Made by a program: the position numbers and the translations under genes. The notes beneath the pieces are model-generated. The model was not told where the DNA came from. It was given only the letters and a program-made list of their open reading frames with translations, and did no database searches. A stretch of DNA of 21,266 bases from positions 1-21,266 of IMG/VR virus record IMGVR_UViG_3300009505_000082. One strand, 5' to 3'. This DNA comes from a virus. Below, piece by piece: positions 6,098 to 17,968 of this stretch (within the stretch, counting starts at the first letter, position 1; each line of letters begins with the position of its first letter).

Positions 6098-6874
6098 ATG
6101 AAGATACGTGAGCTAGTAAATGAATCACCTTTGCTTAAGAATACGGGCAGTTATAATCCTAACGAAGCTAGCGCAGTTAAAAAAGTACAAACTGCGCTAC
6201 AGCGCAAGGGATATGATGTAGGCCCAACGGGCGTTGATGGCAAGTACGGTCCTCGAACCGAAGCAGCAGTGCGCAAATTCCAAACAGACAATAACTTACA
6301 AGTTGATGGCATAGTAGGGCCTGACACACGCAACGCACTCGGTGTTGCTTCTGTAAAAACACTTGATCCTGATAGTCAAGTGGGATTTTTCGGTGATCCG
6401 TCGGTAGGCTTAGATCTAGTAAGTAAGTCTAATGATGTGTCAGGCGACGCAATAGACATAGCAGCGACTTTGATAAAAGAGTTTGAAGGTTATTATTCTA
6501 AAGCATACTGGGATTATAAGCAGTATTCAATCGGGTACGGTTCAAAGGCAAAAAGCAAAAATGAAGTGATCGATAAGCCGGAAGCTATGCGCAGGCTTAA
6601 ACAAGAAATGAAACAAGCTCAACAAAACGTGCTAGGTATTATGAAAAAAGGCAACTACAATTGGAGCAGTAAACAAGTAGCAGCACTAATTAGTTTTGCC
6701 TATAACATTGGTAGCATAAACCAACTTACAGCTAACGGCACAAGGGACGACGCAACTATATTAGCTAAGATACCTCAATATCGCAAAGCCGGCGGTAAAG
6801 TGTTAAGCGGTCTAGTAAAACGCAGAACCAAAGAAGCAGAAGTTTTTAAACAAGGTATGACAAATGAGAATTAA
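6098..6874 (+). CDS. Peptidoglycan-binding / GH24 lysozyme with capsid-targeting-like leader
   Basis: A muramidase that would cleave the MurNAc-GlcNAc bond of peptidoglycan. Residues 1-9 are MKIRELVNE, the shared leader. Residues ~24-82 are a PG_binding_1 module (VQTALQRKGYDVGPTGVDGK, then YGPRTEAAVRKFQ and VDGIVGPDTRNAL). Residues ~118-252 are a GH24 (T4 lysozyme/P22 endolysin type) domain. E130 in EFEG and D139 keep the 9-residue spacing of T4 lysozyme E11 and D20, followed by SIGYGS, ALISFAYNIGS and GLVKRRTKEAEVF. There is no signal peptide or SAR segment. It overlaps the next gene by 11 nt and is followed by another wall-lytic enzyme. It may be a lysis endolysin, but the leader raises the possibility that it is carried in the virion and acts at entry. 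Confidence 0.88.
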   Translation: MKIRELVNESPLLKNTGSYNPNEASAVKKVQTALQRKGYDVGPTGVDGKYGPRTEAAVRKFQTDNNLQVDGIVGPDTRNALGVASVKTLDPDSQVGFFGDPSVGLDLVSKSNDVSGDAIDIAATLIKEFEGYYSKAYWDYKQYSIGYGSKAKSKNEVIDKPEAMRRLKQEMKQAQQNVLGIMKKGNYNWSSKQVAALISFAYNIGSINQLTANGTRDDATILAKIPQYRKAGGKVLSGLVKRRTKEAEVFKQGMTNEN

Positions 6875-7739
6875 AGATATCGTAAGCGAAGACAACCGCG
6901 ACGAAGCTAAGAAAATAATACAGCAGATAAACGATTTGAATAACATACCAGGACTAAGTGGCATACAGTTTGACGATGAGGGCGAATTCGTTGATGACGC
7001 TACGTATAAGTCAAGAAACATAGAGCCAGCTGAACCTAAAGAATTAACTCCGCTACAAAAGCAAAGACAAGTTGGACAAAGCCGCAGTAACATAGGGCAG
7101 TGGGCACTTCGCACTACTGACCATGACGCATTTACAATCATTGCTAAAGCTAACTTCTTAATGACCAACTTCCATACCAAAGGTAACGACTTTGACCCAC
7201 GCTTCGCAAACTATGAAGGCTTTATCAGTCTAGGTCGAGGCAAGAACAACGTATATCAACGAAGCATGAAGGACGGTGGAGTAACTATGGTTCTTGACGT
7301 AAACAAAATGAGACAGATACGTGGAGCAAAGTACAGCCAAGCATTTGTTTACGGTACGTACGACAAAAAAACCAAAAAATTAGAACCAGCGAAAACAGCT
7401 TCGCAAACTCCTAGCGGTATGTCGTTTATAGACGAAGCAGAGCATAGAATGTATTTTAAGAGTCAATTTGTTGATGACTGGCACAAATACATAAAAGAAA
7501 TACATTTCAATATGCCAACGGAAAACGGCAAGCCAGCAAGTCATTTGATCAAAGCAGAAGAGATAGCAAGAGACTACGCTGACAAGTTCAACATAAAATA
7601 TTTTGTATACAAAGATCGATCTGCTTACAATATGCTAGCCAAAGGTTATGCTATGAGTAGCAAGGCAATTAAAAAAGCAGGTGGTCTAGCTAAACTGTTT
7701 GCGTTTGTATTTTCCCGAGGTAAGGTAAAGCTAAAATGA
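6864..7739 (+). CDS. Possible ADP-ribosyltransferase-like protein with capsid-targeting-like leader
   Basis: A 291-residue protein. The leader is MRIKDIVSE, followed by an acidic linker to ~80. The core (80-215) has a series I associate with ART/PolyVal-type folds: LRTTDHDAFTIIAKANF, then FISLGRG (120-126), VTMVLDVNKM (140-149), EAEHRMYF (191-198) and KYIKEIHF (208-215). In such folds the Arg in the first strand, the Ser/Gly-Arg strand and the Glu of EAExR shape the NAD site. T4 packages and injects its own ART, Alt, through a capsid-targeting sequence, which makes this combination meaningful. The Lys-rich C-terminus (SRGKVKLK) is basic. The fold call is by eye and unsearched. The alternative is a conserved phage protein of another fold. 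It overlaps neighbours on both sides (11 nt and 4 nt). Confidence 0.75.
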   Translation: MRIKDIVSEDNRDEAKKIIQQINDLNNIPGLSGIQFDDEGEFVDDATYKSRNIEPAEPKELTPLQKQRQVGQSRSNIGQWALRTTDHDAFTIIAKANFLMTNFHTKGNDFDPRFANYEGFISLGRGKNNVYQRSMKDGGVTMVLDVNKMRQIRGAKYSQAFVYGTYDKKTKKLEPAKTASQTPSGMSFIDEAEHRMYFKSQFVDDWHKYIKEIHFNMPTENGKPASHLIKAEEIARDYADKFNIKYFVYKDRSAYNMLAKGYAMSSKAIKKAGGLAKLFAFVFSRGKVKLK

Positions 7740-8398
7740 AAATAAATGAACTAATAAACGAAGACTGGTGGAACCCGTTCAAGAAGAAAGACACTTACCC
7801 GCAAGACGCAAGAGACGCAATGGATGCTGTAGTAGCATCGTCTACAGCAAAAGCAGCACAAAGCTCAGGACGTGGCGACGGTAACACCGAAGTAGCAAGA
7901 CGCAACGCACCTCCGATGCCCAAGCAACGACCAGACGTTGTACAAGCAGCTATTGCTAGAGCTGCCAAGGACTTAGGTATATCACCAAAGGCGCTGCGTG
8001 CTATTGTTAAGACAGAATCCAATTTCAAATCAACAGCAGTATCACCTAGTGGAAATCACTACGGTGCTACGCAGATACACAAGAGTCATTTCCCAATGGC
8101 GGGCATGACTGCTGATGAATTCAAAGCAGCATCACTAGACCAGCAGATAGCAGTTTATCCCGAGTGGGCAAAAAGCTATCGTATGCTAGAAAAGTTTCCT
8201 AACATAGAAACATATAAGCCAGCAGTACAAGCAGCTATCATGCAAGCGTTTCAGTTTGCTCCAAACGGTTCTAAATGGCAAAAAGCATTTCACAGTCAAA
8301 ACTATGACCTGCCAGTAACTAAGAGTCAGCAAGCAGGCAAACTAGGCACGACAAGCATACGTGATATGTACACTTATTTTGTAGGATTGGGGTTGTAG
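7736..8398 (+). CDS. Lytic transglycosylase (SLT-type) with capsid-targeting-like leader
   Basis: A 220-residue protein. The leader MKINELINED contains two I-x-E triplets. Residues 11-65 are a charged, low-complexity linker. Residues ~66-200 look like a soluble lytic transglycosylase domain: AIARAAKDLGISPKALRAIV, E94 in VKTESNF as the probable catalytic Glu, and YGATQIHKSHF in place of the usual GLMQI. These enzymes cleave peptidoglycan to 1,6-anhydro ends. Virion-borne versions (e.g. the transglycosylase part of T7 gp16) open the wall for DNA entry. There is no signal peptide. Its start overlaps the previous stop (ATGA) and it closes a cluster of four leader-bearing genes. The function is well supported by motifs; the virion location is inferred. 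Confidence 0.82.
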   Translation: MKINELINEDWWNPFKKKDTYPQDARDAMDAVVASSTAKAAQSSGRGDGNTEVARRNAPPMPKQRPDVVQAAIARAAKDLGISPKALRAIVKTESNFKSTAVSPSGNHYGATQIHKSHFPMAGMTADEFKAASLDQQIAVYPEWAKSYRMLEKFPNIETYKPAVQAAIMQAFQFAPNGSKWQKAFHSQNYDLPVTKSQQAGKLGTTSIRDMYTYFVGLGL

Positions 8399-9702: not shown

Positions 9703-10449
9703 CTAGTTAGCCTTACAATGCTTTGCGTATAGACTACAAGTATGATCGTTTATCATGTCTAGTTTGTTACCCACTAGGCCATTCCAGCGGTCCATAAGCT
9801 TTTTCCAAAAGCCTACGTTTACAACAACACCGTCACTATTAATATACTTCTCAGTACCTGCGTGCTTGAAGCCTAACAGTGCCGGCGGAACCATAGTAAC
9901 AACATCATTATTGTTAACCCAACGATAGTGTGTCTTGCCTGCCATGCTGTTAGCAAACTTAGCGTCGCCTGCTCTAGGAGAACCAAAAGTGTGTAGCTCA
10001 ACTGGGTCAGGCAATGCGTCATCTTCCCAAGCACGACTTGCCATAATAGTAATCATAGCAGCGCCGAGGCTGTGACCTGTAAACCACAAGTTGCGCTTGT
10101 CGTCATTTAGCGCTACTAGGTCCTCGTATATCATTTCCCAGATGTCATCAGACTCACGCTTGAATCCTTTGTGTACTTTACCAACAGTTTCGCTGTCTTC
10201 TTTTCGTGCGTCGAGATCAGCAAGCATATCGTTCCAGTTGCCAGGCTCAGTACCTCGACAAACAAACACTACATCAGTGTCACTTTCAAAGCGATACGCC
10301 TGGGCACCGTCTCTGCTGTAAAACTCAAGTGTGTGAAAACCAAATTCTTTAACAAGTTTTTTAGCTTCAGCTGGATCTTCGTAAACAAACTCAGATAGCT
10401 TGGCCAGAATGTGTCCCCGTCCGGAGACACGAAGTGATTTCATATTCAT
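9703..10449 (-). CDS. Class 3 lipase (alpha/beta hydrolase)
   Basis: A 248-residue protein with the features of the lipase_3 family, which hydrolyses acylglycerols or phospholipids: VVFVCRGTEPGNW (60-72) as the oxyanion region, the nucleophile elbow GHSLGA with Ser127, FGSPRAGD (155-162), the probable Asp182 in WVNNNDVVTMVPP and His236 near the C-terminus (NDHTCS). There is no signal peptide or lipobox, so it would act in the cytoplasm, be released at lysis, or be carried in the particle. It opens MNMKSLRVSGRG, without the I-x-E leader. The first ATG follows AGAGAGG about 10 nt away. A single-gene unit bounded by an exact late promoter (10476-10483) and a terminator. Confidence 0.88.
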   Translation of the reverse strand: MNMKSLRVSGRGHILAKLSEFVYEDPAEAKKLVKEFGFHTLEFYSRDGAQAYRFESDTDVVFVCRGTEPGNWNDMLADLDARKEDSETVGKVHKGFKRESDDIWEMIYEDLVALNDDKRNLWFTGHSLGAAMITIMASRAWEDDALPDPVELHTFGSPRAGDAKFANSMAGKTHYRWVNNNDVVTMVPPALLGFKHAGTEKYINSDGVVVNVGFWKKLMDRWNGLVGNKLDMINDHTCSLYAKHCKAN

Positions 10450-10506: not shown

Positions 10507-10770
10507 ATGCGCAAGAAAACTAGATCAATTTTAGAAGAACTACAGAACTATAGAAATTATGACCCTGACTTCATGATTGAAGGATCTGCTACTAACATTT
10601 TAGAAAGTGTTGTCAACTTAATGACTAGAGTTGACAAGCAGTACGGTCCTGACACAAGCATGAAGATTGAGAAAAAGTTTATTAACGCTTTGCGTACTGG
10701 CGATACTGACAAGTTTAGTAGAAGCTTAAAACGAATTATTAAGGAAACTAAAAATGACGATCCTAAATGA
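10507..10770 (+). CDS. Small protein of unknown function, 87 aa
   Basis: I take MRKKTRSILEELQNYRNYDP at 10507 as the start. The longer reading from 10453 would run through both divergent promoters. The protein is basic and helical, with I-x-E at residues 8-10 and a second hydrophobic helix (SATNILESVVNLMTRVDKQY) followed by KIEKKFINALRTGDTDKFSR. No clear ribosome site is present. The 3' end overlaps the nucleotidyltransferase gene by 17 nt, so the two are coupled and AAGGA inside its last codons serves the next start. It may be a partner or regulator of the downstream enzymes; that is position-based only. Confidence 0.68.
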   Translation: MRKKTRSILEELQNYRNYDPDFMIEGSATNILESVVNLMTRVDKQYGPDTSMKIEKKFINALRTGDTDKFSRSLKRIIKETKNDDPK

Positions 10771-11863
10771 AGGCGGCAATATTTTTAAAGATGCTGAAGG
10801 TACTATCCTTACACAGCGCATTGACCGAGCAGACGTAGTACCAACACTACGTTGGTTAGAAAAAATTACAAATCTTCCACACGAAGACTTTATGCTAGGA
10901 AGTACAGGTCGTAAAGAAACAAGCGGAGACCTTGACGTAGCAGTTAACCAACAAGATGTAAGCAAAGACGAGCTAGTACAAAAGCTAGCAGCGTGGTGTA
11001 CCCAGAACGGCAAAGATCCAAAAGCTTGGATACGCAAGACAGGTATTAGCGTACACTTCCTAACGCCCATCCGTGGTGATGAAAACAAAGGCTTTGTACA
11101 AACTGATCTAATGTTTGGCGATCCGGAATGGATGAAGTGGAGTATGGCAGGTTCAAACGATGCTACTGCGTTTGCTGGCGCTGACCGTCAAATCTTAATG
11201 AGCAGCATTGCTACTGCACAAGGCTTTAAATGGAGCCCAGCGCAAGGTCTTATTGATCGTATGAATAATCAAGTGATTACTCGCAACCCGCAGGAAATCG
11301 CACAGCACTTGCTAGGACCAAACGGTCAGCCAGATGACTTAGAAAGTGTAGAAACTATTTTAACAAAGCTGCGTACTCGTGTTGACTATCAAGAGTTAAC
11401 AGCAGATGCTAGAGCTACATTTGAAAAAAGGGGAAAAACATTGCCAGAAGGTAAAGATATTAGTCGCTTGCGTGAGCTAGCTGGCGTACAAAAAATAGAC
11501 GAAAATCCATTGAAGTTTGCTAAGAAAGCTGCCGACGCAGCAAGCAAAATGTTTAAAGGTGCGGACCCGGAGCCGAAACCGTTTGACCCAGTTGATTTTA
11601 TCGAAAAGCTTCCTAAGTCAGGTAGCGCTCGTGAAAGGCTCGAAGGTCTAATCCAAAATGTAAACAGCGTTGAGGACTTGGCTAAAGTAGAGAAAAAGTT
11701 CCTTGACATCCTTGCGCAAAAGAAAGTTCGATCTACTGAGGAAGCACAGTATTTGATAGACGTACTTCGAGTTAAGAAGCAAGAATTAATAAATCATAAT
11801 AATAAGTTTGTAAGACCAGATGCTCCAGACGCTCCGTTTGGATCACCAGGGAACCCAATCTAA
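10754..11863 (+). CDS. Polymerase-beta-like nucleotidyltransferase
   Basis: A 369-residue protein. Residues 45-65 carry the nucleotidyltransferase signature: GSTGRKETSGDLDVAV, with Gly49-Ser50 and Asp59/Asp61 as the metal-binding pair. A third acidic residue, Asp118 in VQTDLMF, follows on a later strand. Enzymes of this superfamily transfer NMP to RNA, protein or small molecules; the acceptor here is unknown. The C-terminal ~120 residues are helical and charged (SARERLEGLIQNVNSVEDLA). The N-terminus MTILNEGG contains L-N-E at residues 4-6, a weak form of the shared leader. It overlaps the upstream gene by 17 nt and joins the ligase-fold gene by TAATG, suggesting a joint pathway. Confidence 0.8.
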   Translation: MTILNEGGNIFKDAEGTILTQRIDRADVVPTLRWLEKITNLPHEDFMLGSTGRKETSGDLDVAVNQQDVSKDELVQKLAAWCTQNGKDPKAWIRKTGISVHFLTPIRGDENKGFVQTDLMFGDPEWMKWSMAGSNDATAFAGADRQILMSSIATAQGFKWSPAQGLIDRMNNQVITRNPQEIAQHLLGPNGQPDDLESVETILTKLRTRVDYQELTADARATFEKRGKTLPEGKDISRLRELAGVQKIDENPLKFAKKAADAASKMFKGADPEPKPFDPVDFIEKLPKSGSARERLEGLIQNVNSVEDLAKVEKKFLDILAQKKVRSTEEAQYLIDVLRVKKQELINHNNKFVRPDAPDAPFGSPGNPI

Positions 11864-13059
11864 TGAAAATGATCGAACTGTTCGAAGGAACGACTCAGCT
11901 AAACGAAGGAGCCGAGGCTCGTATTCAACACGCAGAGGACTTGATCTTTTGGGAAGGTTCTAAAGGTGCGCTTCGTGCGCTCGAAGCACTAAAAAGTATG
12001 GAAGAAGGCAAGCACAAAGACGTTACAATTAAATGGGACGGGTCGCCTGCTATTATCTTTGGACGCAACGAAGACGGCGAGTTTGTACTTACTGACAAAA
12101 GCGGCTTTGGTGCTAAAGGATACGACGGTAAGCCGAAAACTGCGCAAGCAGTTAACGATATGTTCATGCGCCGTCCAGCGGCACAGAAAGATCCGCAACG
12201 CCAACAAGAGTTCGCAGGCAAAATGTCGCAGCTATTCACACTGTACGAGCGTAGCTTTCCTAAGCATGTAATCGGCTTTCTCAAAGGCGATCTACTTTAC
12301 TTTGATACACCTCCGCAACAGGACGGTAGCTTTGTGTTTACACCTAACATTGTAACTTACACAGTTGATGCTAACAGCGAAATAGGTAGTCAGATTGCTT
12401 CTAGTAAAAGTGGTGTAGTTGTACACAGATTTATGACCCCAGACGGTCAAGACTCTGCTGTGCCTCAAAGCATTTTAAATCAAATGAGTGCAGGCGAAGT
12501 GATGTACTTCCCACCAGTAACTGTTGAGCGTGCGCCAAACGTAAATGATTCACATGTCAAAGACGCTATATCTCTTGTAACACAGAGCGGCGCAGCAATT
12601 GACGACATGTTAAATGTTCAACGACTAACTGAACTAAAGATGAAAGATCTGCCTATGATCTTTTACACTTATCTAAACAAGAAAGTTGACTTAGGCCTTG
12701 ACAACTTAGGTAGTGATTTTGTAAAGTGGATGCAGACAAGCAAGGTGTCACCGGCTAAGCAGCAAAGAATACAAGAGTACATTACTGAGCACAGCCAAGC
12801 GTTCAGAAACATGTGGCAATCAGTTGAAGAAATTATGCGAGTCAAGAACGATATTATTAAACAGTTCGACTCACACGACAGTGCTATTAAGTCAAGCATT
12901 AACGGTAACAACGGTGGCGAGGGATATGTAATGGATCATAACCAAGGCGCTATTAAACTTGTAGACCGTAGCGGCTTTACAGCAGCCAACAGATCTGTAC
13001 AGCGTGAGTCTGTATCACCTGAGCTAGACAGCATAAAGAAGCTAAGCGGCCTGGCATGA
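11863..13059 (+). CDS. ATP-dependent ligase-fold (covalent nucleotidyltransferase) protein
   Basis: A 398-residue protein. Key motifs of the DNA/RNA ligase superfamily are visible in order: motif I KWDG at 57-60 in TIKWDGSPAIIFGR (Lys57 would take AMP), a GDLLYFD stretch at 142-148 as a candidate motif III, EGYVM at 353-357 as motif IV, and IKLVDR at 364-369 as motif V, with only one of the usual two Lys. The long insertion between III and IV is unlike classic T4 Rnl1 or Rnl2. The leader MKMIELFEG has L-F-E at 6-8. Substrate (RNA, DNA or other) is unknown. It is coupled to the nucleotidyltransferase upstream (TAATG) and to the next gene (ATGA). Confidence 0.78.
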   Translation: MKMIELFEGTTQLNEGAEARIQHAEDLIFWEGSKGALRALEALKSMEEGKHKDVTIKWDGSPAIIFGRNEDGEFVLTDKSGFGAKGYDGKPKTAQAVNDMFMRRPAAQKDPQRQQEFAGKMSQLFTLYERSFPKHVIGFLKGDLLYFDTPPQQDGSFVFTPNIVTYTVDANSEIGSQIASSKSGVVVHRFMTPDGQDSAVPQSILNQMSAGEVMYFPPVTVERAPNVNDSHVKDAISLVTQSGAAIDDMLNVQRLTELKMKDLPMIFYTYLNKKVDLGLDNLGSDFVKWMQTSKVSPAKQQRIQEYITEHSQAFRNMWQSVEEIMRVKNDIIKQFDSHDSAIKSSINGNNGGEGYVMDHNQGAIKLVDRSGFTAANRSVQRESVSPELDSIKKLSGLA

Positions 13060-15103: not shown

Positions 15104-15358
15104 ATGAACGAAGCAACACAGATTTGGGGCAGAAAAGGGCAAGCACTAGTACGCAAGTATAGATGCTCAGGCGGCAAGCGTCATGGACGTATTGTTTCTT
15201 CACCAACTGCTTGTCATGCTGCTCCTAACGCAAAGCGCAGCGCACAAATGAAAATTACTCGTGCTCGACTTGGCAAGGTAATGGCTCGACGAGCAAAGCG
15301 TACAAAACGTGTAAACCCTGCTAGCAAAAGATTATCACAAGGTATGAACAAAAGATGA
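15104..15358 (+). CDS. Very basic small protein, 84 aa
   Basis: Begins MNEATQIWGRKGQALVRKYR. I count 14 Arg and 10 Lys in 84 residues (29%) and almost no acidic residues. Two Cys (YRC and TAC) about 16 apart lie in the middle, and KRTKRVNPASKRLSQ is near the end. The pattern fits a DNA- or RNA-binding protein, and similar basic proteins are found in T4-like marine phages. T4 internal head proteins are also basic. The ribosome site is GGATAAGG overlapping the previous stop. Its own stop overlaps the next start (ATGA). Function unknown. Confidence 0.7.
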   Translation: MNEATQIWGRKGQALVRKYRCSGGKRHGRIVSSPTACHAAPNAKRSAQMKITRARLGKVMARRAKRTKRVNPASKRLSQGMNKR

Positions 15359-15660
15359 AAATTCTCGACCTACTAAGCGAAAACGAAAACCCAATGACAA
15401 CAGCGCAAAACCAGCTGGCATTGGCTCGTAAAGAGCTTCAGGATCACCAAGCTAAAATTAGAGATATGCAAGGCCAGCAGATGCAGGCAAAGAGAGCAGC
15501 AGTAACAGCAGCTCAGCAATCATTAACAGCAGCACAGAAGCAACAGAATAATCCGCAGCAACAGCAGCAAAACACACAACAGCCGCAACCACAACAGTCG
15601 CAGCAAAACACACAACAGCAGCCTAACAATCAAACAATGGGCAGCACACAGCCACAATGA
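15355..15660 (+). CDS. Gln-rich low-complexity protein with capsid-targeting-like leader, 101 aa
   Basis: Starts MKILDLLSENENP, so L-S-E falls at residues 7-9. Residues ~15-58 are a helix (LARKELQDHQAKIRDMQGQQ) that may form a coiled coil. Residues ~60-101 are almost only Gln, Asn, Pro and Ser, including an in-frame 12-residue duplication at DNA level (15564-15583 and 15600-15619). The reading frame is kept open across the repeat and is joined at both ends by ATGA overlaps, so it is a real gene. A flexible linker, scaffold or phase-separating role is conceivable; nothing specific can be assigned. Confidence 0.68.
   Translation: MKILDLLSENENPMTTAQNQLALARKELQDHQAKIRDMQGQQMQAKRAAVTAAQQSLTAAQKQQNNPQQQQQNTQQPQPQQSQQNTQQQPNNQTMGSTQPQ
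15564..15619 (+). repeat. 20-bp direct repeat in the Gln-rich gene
   Basis: The sequence GCAGCAAAACACACAACAGC occurs at 15564-15583 and again at 15600-15619, an offset of 36 nt (12 codons). This keeps the frame and repeats QQNTQQ. Confidence 0.85.
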
Positions 15661-16290: not shown

Positions 16291-17220
16291 ATGAACATTA
16301 AAGATATGAATAAAAAGCCTAGCTCAGCAGAACTTAACCAGAATCTTGTTGAGCGTTTTAATCTTAACGTTACTCTTGAAAACTACTCGTTTAACGATTT
16401 AGTCAACATGAGAACAATACTTGTTTCTAAGATAAACAGAATGGTCGAGAGCAATAACTTTGATTATACTCATAAAGACGAATATCAAAAGAACAGACTG
16501 TTTGCTGAAATACTTGAGGCTGAAATCGAAGCACGTCGTCCGCTAGTTGAAGGCGAAGAAATGAAAGCTCGGCTTGTAGTTGGCATAAGTCAGGTAATTG
16601 ACGATGTTAAGAATTGGATGCAGAAAGCAAACGATCTAAAAGCTGACGAAGTACTAGAGTACACAGAAATTGTTCGTGACGAAATGGGCGCGGACACTAG
16701 TCAGCAGTTTGGCGAAATAGTCAACACTGCTCTAGAAAATCTTTACACAGCAATGGAAGCAGCACACGGCGAAATGCTAAGAGCTCAAGACGTAATTATG
16801 GGTAAAGACCCTGGCACAGCTATTGAAGAGCCAATGGGCGCAGAAGAGCCAATGGACGAGCCTGCTGTAGGCGACGCAGATATAGAACTTGATGACGACT
16901 TTGGTGCTACTGCTCCAGCAGTAGGCGGAGATGCTCCAGCAGACCGCACACGCCGTGAAAGCATTGAGCGTAGTCGCAGACTTGGTGCTATCATGAGCGA
17001 AGGTAACTTGTCTGACTATGTAGCCAACAAGAAAACTGCCCAGCAAAGAAAAGCAGTACGAGGCGGCAAAGGTAGAGCTAAGGCAGCAGGTAAAGCTGAT
17101 CCAAGAGCTACTGATACCACTCTTGGCGGAGTGTTAAATCAAGAGCGTCGTACTCAGAAGCACCAACAAAAGAAAAGAGTTACTAACCCTGCTAACCATA
17201 ACGCAAAAGACGGTATGTAA
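16291..17220 (+). CDS. Prohead-core-like / internal structural protein, 309 aa
   Basis: Begins MNIKDMNKKPSSAELNQNLV. Residues ~1-170 are helical (RTILVSKINRMVESNNFDYT; KARLVVGISQVIDDVKNWMQ; YTEIVRDEMGADTSQQFGEI). Residues ~178-215 are an acidic Pro/Ala linker (GAEEPMDEPAVGDADIELDD). Residues ~217-309 are Arg/Lys-rich and disordered-looking, with IMSEGNLSDY, which includes I-M-S-E. The SQVIDDVKNWMQ...VRDEMG pattern resembles a conserved protein of marine T4-like phages that I believe is virion- or core-related, but I am not certain. Acidic linker plus basic tail suits a scaffold or DNA-contacting head protein. It joins the next gene by TAATG. Confidence 0.7.
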   Translation: MNIKDMNKKPSSAELNQNLVERFNLNVTLENYSFNDLVNMRTILVSKINRMVESNNFDYTHKDEYQKNRLFAEILEAEIEARRPLVEGEEMKARLVVGISQVIDDVKNWMQKANDLKADEVLEYTEIVRDEMGADTSQQFGEIVNTALENLYTAMEAAHGEMLRAQDVIMGKDPGTAIEEPMGAEEPMDEPAVGDADIELDDDFGATAPAVGGDAPADRTRRESIERSRRLGAIMSEGNLSDYVANKKTAQQRKAVRGGKGRAKAAGKADPRATDTTLGGVLNQERRTQKHQQKKRVTNPANHNAKDGM

Positions 17221-17609
17221 TGCGTATAGCAGAATTACTGCGTGAAAACACAGATCTACTTTTTCAGATCTTGAAGACAGTGGAAGGCAGCGCTAATCAA
17301 AAAGATATGCCAGTTGCCCTCCACTTCGATGGAATCACTAAGCCAGTACAAGGCGCAGTTAACTTAGACATCAATCGTATCATGACAAACGCTGGATCCC
17401 CGCAATTCAGCTTTGACACTTTTAACAATGCGTACGAGCAAGATGATCGCATCAAAGACCTTGTAAAAGAATTTGACAAAGATAAAATTATTCTCAAGAC
17501 TGAAGAACAACTTGCTGACCCAGCAGATCAAAGCAAGCCAGGCGATGCTGAAAACACCGTAAAAGACATGGCAAAAAAAGGTTTAAATACTTTCTTAAAA
17601 GATCGTTGA
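17220..17609 (+). CDS. Small protein with capsid-targeting-like leader, 129 aa
   Basis: Begins MRIAELLRENTDLLFQILKT; I-A-E at 3-5 and L-R-E at 7-9 both match. The central part has a strand-rich patch (MPVALHFDGITKPVQGAVNL) and an acidic helical C-terminus (KEFDKDKIILKTEEQLADPA). The start is TAATG-coupled to the core-like gene, and this is the last leader-bearing gene in the window. Function unknown. Just past its stop the first sigma70-type promoter begins; the -35 overlaps its final codons. Confidence 0.68.
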   Translation: MRIAELLRENTDLLFQILKTVEGSANQKDMPVALHFDGITKPVQGAVNLDINRIMTNAGSPQFSFDTFNNAYEQDDRIKDLVKEFDKDKIILKTEEQLADPADQSKPGDAENTVKDMAKKGLNTFLKDR

Positions 17610-17641: not shown

Positions 17642-17968
17642 ATGAATGAAAACAGAACCAACGAACAAATCATCACTGAGATTAAAGAGCTTATTCAAGA
17701 ACGAGTAAAACCAGCTGTGGCAGGCCACGGCGGCAATATTGAATTTTTAGAATTCAACGACGGCCGTTTACTACTTGAGCTTGGCGGAGCATGTAGCGGA
17801 TGCGCAGGCAGCACTATGACTCTTAAGATGGGTATCGAAAATATGCTAATGCATTACGTACCTGAGATTAAAGAAGTAGACGCTGTAGACGATCCTTTTA
17901 GCAATGTAGATCCTTTTTATACTGAGGATTTTTTTAGCACTGAAAATTTAGATGACCCTAATTCTTAA
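17642..17968 (+). CDS. Nfu/NifU C-terminal domain iron-sulfur protein
   Basis: A 108-residue protein. Residues ~10-82 are a NifU C-terminal domain: IKELIQERVKPAVAGHGGNI, LLLELGGACSGCAGSTMTLK with Cys51 and Cys54 (CxxC), then GIENMLMHYVPEIKEV. Such proteins hold a [4Fe-4S] cluster as a dimer and pass it to apo-enzymes. A single domain without the A-type N-terminus of NfuA is the phage and plastid size. The acidic, Phe-rich tail (DPFSNVDPFYTEDFFSTE) is unusual. The stop overlaps the exonuclease gene by 17 nt. Possible clients are Fe-S nucleases or host enzymes; that is inference. It is a host-derived auxiliary metabolic gene candidate. Confidence 0.88.
   Translation: MNENRTNEQIITEIKELIQERVKPAVAGHGGNIEFLEFNDGRLLLELGGACSGCAGSTMTLKMGIENMLMHYVPEIKEVDAVDDPFSNVDPFYTEDFFSTENLDDPNS

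Follow-up and report, generated by a model that had tools for sequence, protein, structure and literature searches.

A predicted ADP-ribosyltransferase with a T4-like leader belongs to a phage family absent from the libraries searched

The window analysed here is a 21 kb contig of an uncultured marine phage (21,266 nucleotides), in which an ORF with an ATG start, encoding 291 residues, lies at positions 6864–7739 on the plus strand. We think it probable that this protein is an ADP-ribosyltransferase (ART) from an undescribed phage family, which would be packaged in the phage head, injected into the host, and used there to ADP-ribosylate a host macromolecule. Its family membership, fold, conserved Arg/Glu/Glu residues and leader pattern were all computed. 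T4 Alt is the main known example of an ART packaged in the head. A phage ART with a delivery tag like that of T4 is thus a known kind of protein; what is new is its family, which is unlisted and has a core resembling DarT and Tpt1.

Family membership and conserved residues

In a preliminary description of the window, the N-terminal block MRIKDIVSE of the ORF was taken as a leader and four further blocks, FISLGRG, VTMVLDVNKM, EAEHRMYF and KYIKEIHF, as signs of an ART; all five are present in that order. When the protein was searched directly against Pfam, PHROGs, NCBIfam, PDB sequences (phmmer), phage genomes (tblastn) and IMG/VR, no match was found, as would be expected if the resemblance of the blocks to ART motifs were due to chance in a protein lacking the fold. 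The entry point to the family was a 13 kb contig (L003) from a closely related phage, most of whose other genes are 85–98% identical to those of the window. This contig carries the last 73 residues of an orthologue (81% identical), followed directly by a tandem paralogue (L003:220-966) whose alignment with the window protein covers the motifs of the preliminary description, and through this paralogue the homologous domains were reached. The core of a further homologue, in L015, gave weak tblastn matches in three unrelated published phages, Lu11, Vibrio D484 and Salmonella Sen-NF, all of which extend over the entire core. Seeds from these three gave stronger matches in Dickeya, Salicola, Alishewanella, Microcystis, Rhizobium and other phages, and a scan of IMG/VR added 53 loci, for a total of about 85–90 domains, mostly in jumbo phages. 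The family is absent from Pfam, PHROGs and NCBIfam. Scans of IMG/VR and GTDB genomes gave no full-length orthologue of the window type, the 73-residue remnant in L003 being the only one.

Membership was assessed with a profile built from published phages only, leaving the window protein and its two nearest kin out of the seed. Seeded with three sequences, this profile scored the window ORF at 28.7 bits, and one round later the score rose to 50.1 bits (E 8e-14). Among thousands of decoys, shuffled or reversed, none exceeded 10.5 bits; the full family profile gave the ORF 93.6 bits. Since the quoted blocks are located on conserved columns of a profile that finds the ORF so far above its decoys, they are more than a chance likeness. 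With its profile match and SxxR...ExExR signature, the window protein is, on sequence grounds, a member of a family typified by phages Lu11, JA13, SCTP-2 and Vibrio D484. By profile, the same family includes Lu11_0200, 0202 and 0206 of Pseudomonas phage Lu11, Dickeya JA13_138/139, Salicola SCTP-2 503, Vibrio D484_0173 and proteins of Alishewanella Slickus01, which are about 14–23% identical to the window protein and, unlike it, have a [YF]HxT motif.

Members occur in large phages, jumbo phages among them; a single phage often has more than one copy, and fusions to other domains are frequent. No library searched has a name for the family. In Alishewanella phage Slickus01, five members lie within 6 kb (L020:4302-10267), every one annotated as hypothetical, and this five-copy multiplication suggests an arms race. 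Several relatives are domains of ORFs of 430–890 residues, and some of these ORFs also contain Pol-beta nucleotidyltransferase (NTase), CTP-transferase-like, dCMP-deaminase or DUF5661 domains; L077 has two tandem copies. In this respect they resemble polyvalent proteins, which are predicted to be injected and among whose protein-modifying domains ARTs are the most frequent (PMC5512222). Many ARTs have been reported from jumbo phages (PMC7824862), so some family members may already have been counted under another name; the passages of PMC9503650 consulted name neither Lu11 nor Dickeya.

The preliminary description had singled out Glu191 or Glu193 as a key residue, and had regarded a lack of Arg/Glu conservation among homologues as evidence against an ART. 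In the family alignment, Arg125, Glu191 and Glu193 are found in all 84 aligned members, Ser122 in 80 and Arg195 in 81. Ser122 and Arg125 lie in FISLGRG (residues 120–126, positions 7221–7241, plus strand), and the two glutamates and Arg195 form the presumptive catalytic motif ExExR (7434–7448, plus strand), whose order matches that of the QxE motif of DarT (PMC11281641). Between them is the predicted core strand VTMVLDVNKM (residues 140–149, 7281–7310, plus strand), assigned from the structural model and the family alignment.

The exception is core strand 1. The His of [YF]HxT is present in 82 of 85 family members, and the window protein has WALRTT (residues 80–85, 7101–7118, plus strand) at the position of this motif. 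The His position falls on Leu82 in multiple alignments or on Arg83 in the best local fit, a register uncertainty of one residue; the local fit, which lies inside the predicted strand 1, also places Thr85 on the conserved Thr. Other family motifs are altered as well, LDG to LDV and DYW to VYG. Because the strand-1 His is missing, we are less confident of catalysis by the window protein than by its family as a whole, and with the LDG and DYW motifs also changed, the window copy may be weak or inactive.

The protein could thus be a diverged paralogue that has kept the ART fold and leader, has lost its NAD+ chemistry, and is packaged as a binding or structural protein. Besides the altered motifs, this reading draws on L003, where a canonical copy is kept beside the window-type copy, so that the latter may be free to drift. 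Yet Arg125, Glu191, Glu193, Arg195 and Ser122 are all retained, and the 81% identity of the L003 C-terminus indicates that the window-type gene is not decaying. Furthermore, ARTs of the R-S-E group have Arg at the strand-1 position, where the local fit favours Arg83; Ser122 and Glu193 of such a set are present in the window protein, and Arg83 is a possible third member given the uncertain strand-1 register. We consider loss of activity somewhat unlikely, and an active enzyme remains our preferred reading.

Predicted fold

An AlphaFold prediction from the single window sequence was useless (pLDDT 35). An AlphaFold2 model of residues 60–291 made from a 44-sequence alignment reached a pLDDT of 79.2 and a pTM of 0.76. 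In a Foldseek search of the PDB with this model, ranks 1–8 were taken by DarT (Thermus and M. tuberculosis) and Tpt1, followed by a drop to unrelated short matches; the best was Thermus sp. 2.9 DarT (7omw; E 3e-4, probability 1.00). VIA-align gave Z 10.2 for Tpt1 (113 residues, 3.0 Å) and Z 9.4 for DarT (147 residues, 3.9 Å), values just above the level of 8 below which a score may reflect a common arrangement, and its lower rows were mostly other ARTs. The best matches in BFVD were unnamed phage proteins, including a Dickeya phage JA11 protein; the top entry bears the name of an ASCH domain. When the family profile was run against PDB sequences, it gave chance matches only.

An ART-type fold had been proposed from the sequence blocks, with a different predicted fold named as the result that would speak against it. 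The prediction yielded an ART fold, with members of the ART superfamily (DarT, Tpt1) as top matches by both methods, and the split-beta ART fold of the window protein is well supported by the model. Taken with the decoy scores and the invariant residues, the fold matches speak against chance motif resemblance, to which we assign a negligible probability in spite of the empty direct searches.

Leader, gene neighbourhood and delivery

The ORF overlaps both of its neighbours, by 11 bases with an upstream lysozyme gene (stop at 6874) and by 4 bases with the next gene (start at 7736), tight overlaps as in densely packed phage genomes. The upstream gene (6098–6874, plus strand) encodes a peptidoglycan-binding domain and a T4-type lysozyme (PF01471, PF00959), and the downstream gene (7736–8398, plus strand) an SLT transglycosylase (PF01464), giving the order lysozyme, ART-like gene, SLT transglycosylase. 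The SLT gene marks a conserved ART slot in related phages. In three of these (L083, L084 and L085), whose SLT gene is 87% identical to that of the window, the place directly upstream of SLT is taken by a canonical family member with LLYHSMT, SFISFSR and DDELETRL. The slot is thus conserved and its occupant differs: the window type in the window, both types in tandem in L003, and the canonical type by itself in L083–L085.

Elsewhere in the window, a plus-strand gene at 10754–11863, conserved in L003 and L083, encodes a protein with GSTGRKETSGDLDVAV, which resembles a Pol-beta nucleotidyltransferase motif and has no Pfam match; in L055, a domain of this kind is joined to the ART. A class 3 lipase (PF01764, E 2e-23) is encoded at 9703–10449 on the minus strand, opposite to its neighbours; its L003 and L083 counterparts are 96% and 88% identical, respectively. 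A small plus-strand protein (17642–17968) containing GACSGCAGS, 96% identical in L003, recalls the NifU C-terminal iron-sulfur scaffold. The late-promoter string TATAAATA is no more frequent than expected by chance.

The first nine residues of the ORF, MRIKDIVSE (6864–6890, plus strand), are probably a prohead targeting and cleavage peptide, with a predicted cut after Glu9. The pattern ^M[KR][IVLM].[EDQ][LIV][VILF].E matches 5 of the 33 window genes, against 0.001 per set in residue shuffles. Apart from the ART, the matches are the lysozyme (MKIRELVNE), the SLT transglycosylase (MKINELINE) and two small plus-strand proteins at 15355–15660 (MKILDLLSE) and 17220–17609 (MRIAELLRE); a DUF6267 protein (11863–13059, plus strand) also bears a leader, MKMIELFE. 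Orthologues vary the letters and retain the pattern, with MRFSEIITE (L083) and MKINEILKE (L003) for SLT, and MRFAEILRE for the protein at 17220. In a fragment of a different phage (L004:235-3300), DUF6267, lysozyme and cytidylyltransferase-like genes all start with the same kind of leader. T4 has similar N-termini in the head protein gp24 (MAKINELLRE), which gp21 cleaves, and in Alt (MELITELFDE). In gp24 and the internal proteins, a short N-terminal propeptide is the capsid-targeting sequence (PMC5694885); beyond this sequence, the T-even internal proteins have little in common (PMC3012670). Judged from sequence pattern alone, the window leader fits a short capsid-targeting peptide with a prohead-protease site at its end, and it is on this match to T4 propeptides that the proposal of packaging rests.

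Alternatively, the protein could be an active ART that, as with T4 ModA/ModB, is synthesised during infection and stays out of the virion, its shared N-terminus having some other role. Profiles for prohead protease, the putative reader of the leader, and for Gp23 (major capsid protein) found no match on the available fragments, a null that says little because only fragments were searched. The literature searched contained no virion proteome of a relative. In many of the jumbo-phage relatives, the short leader is absent or different, which also fits an unpackaged enzyme. However, the leader is common to the lysozyme, transglycosylase, ART and DUF6267 proteins, and its pattern is kept despite sequence change and matches the head propeptides of T4. 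An unpackaged ART is therefore unlikely in our estimation.

For the packaged ART that we prefer, we infer packaging, cleavage, injection, catalysis and a target as follows. The first nine residues would act as a T4-type prohead-targeting peptide, by which the ART-fold protein, made late, would be drawn into the prohead core. The prohead protease would cut the peptide after Glu9, and the enzyme would be packed alongside the DNA and enter the next host by injection. There, NAD+ would bind in a cleft formed by strand 1, Ser122/Arg125 and Glu193, and ADP-ribose would be placed on a host macromolecule. Because the core is DarT/Tpt1-like, nucleic acid is as open a target as protein. A bolder reading is that many jumbo and T4-like marine phages deliver this unannotated DarT/Tpt1-like family in their virions to modify host nucleic acid, not RNA polymerase, and that the window copy, with Arg for His, is a variant of switched specificity. 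We hold this to be an outside prospect; if true, phages inject the kind of enzyme that DarTG defence turns against phages. If the family is active, its members are host-takeover enzymes that can be put to the test, and the short leader would allow other packaged effectors to be listed for uncultured marine phages from sequence alone.

Comparison with known ART systems

With DarT as the top Foldseek match, the protein might be a DarT-like DNA-modifying toxin of a toxin–antitoxin or superinfection-exclusion module. In DarT1 systems, NADAR domains reverse guanine ADP-ribosylation. No macrodomain or NADAR, the DarG-type partners, was found in the window, L003, L015, L083 or L084, all of which are fragments. 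NADAR exceeded the cut-off in 4 of the 36 records searched, in none of them beside an ART gene; these NADAR genes are in the Lu11 record (JQ768459.1, 232033–232440, minus strand), W08, G023 and G024. The DarT profile (PF14487) matched no family member at E 10 in 13 records. Such a toxin module is thus highly improbable.

In DarT, Arg51 and Glu160, the latter in the QxE motif, are required for activity, and His13 and Thr15 contact the NAD ribose (PMC9967889, PMC11543638, PMC11281641). DarT and the family share the order of three elements: HxT on strand 1 (which the relatives have), then a key Arg, then [QE]xE. By order and spacing, as distinct from residue-level superposition, Arg125 may correspond to DarT Arg51 and Glu193 to Glu160. 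The window protein differs from DarT in having only 7–8% identity to it, in the absence of the strand-1 His, and in having no identified equivalents of Tyr71 and His119.

The tRNA 2'-phosphotransferase Tpt1/KptA (7yw4, 8tg3) gave the best VIA Z score. Tpt1 belongs to the H-H-h clade and lacks the catalytic Glu, in contrast to the invariant ExE of the family.

The ART domains of polyvalent proteins (Tox-ART-HYD clade) have a parallel in those relatives that share a large phage ORF with NTase, deaminase and other domains. The window protein, however, stands alone, and its catalytic acid would be a Glu in ExE rather than Asp; in 13 records, PF15633 (Tox-ART-HYD1) gave one weak sub-threshold match, to a single relative, and none over the cut-off.

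The analogy to T4 Alt made in the preliminary description holds for the leader, whose pattern is like that of Alt, but not for kinship, the nearest kin being DarT and Tpt1, and the family profile misses Alt even at E 100. The window protein is much smaller than Alt, and its closest solved folds are DarT and Tpt1, not Alt or VIP2. Like Alt, nevertheless, it is a predicted phage ART with an N-terminal leader of the same pattern, encoded as a separate protein and not as a fusion.
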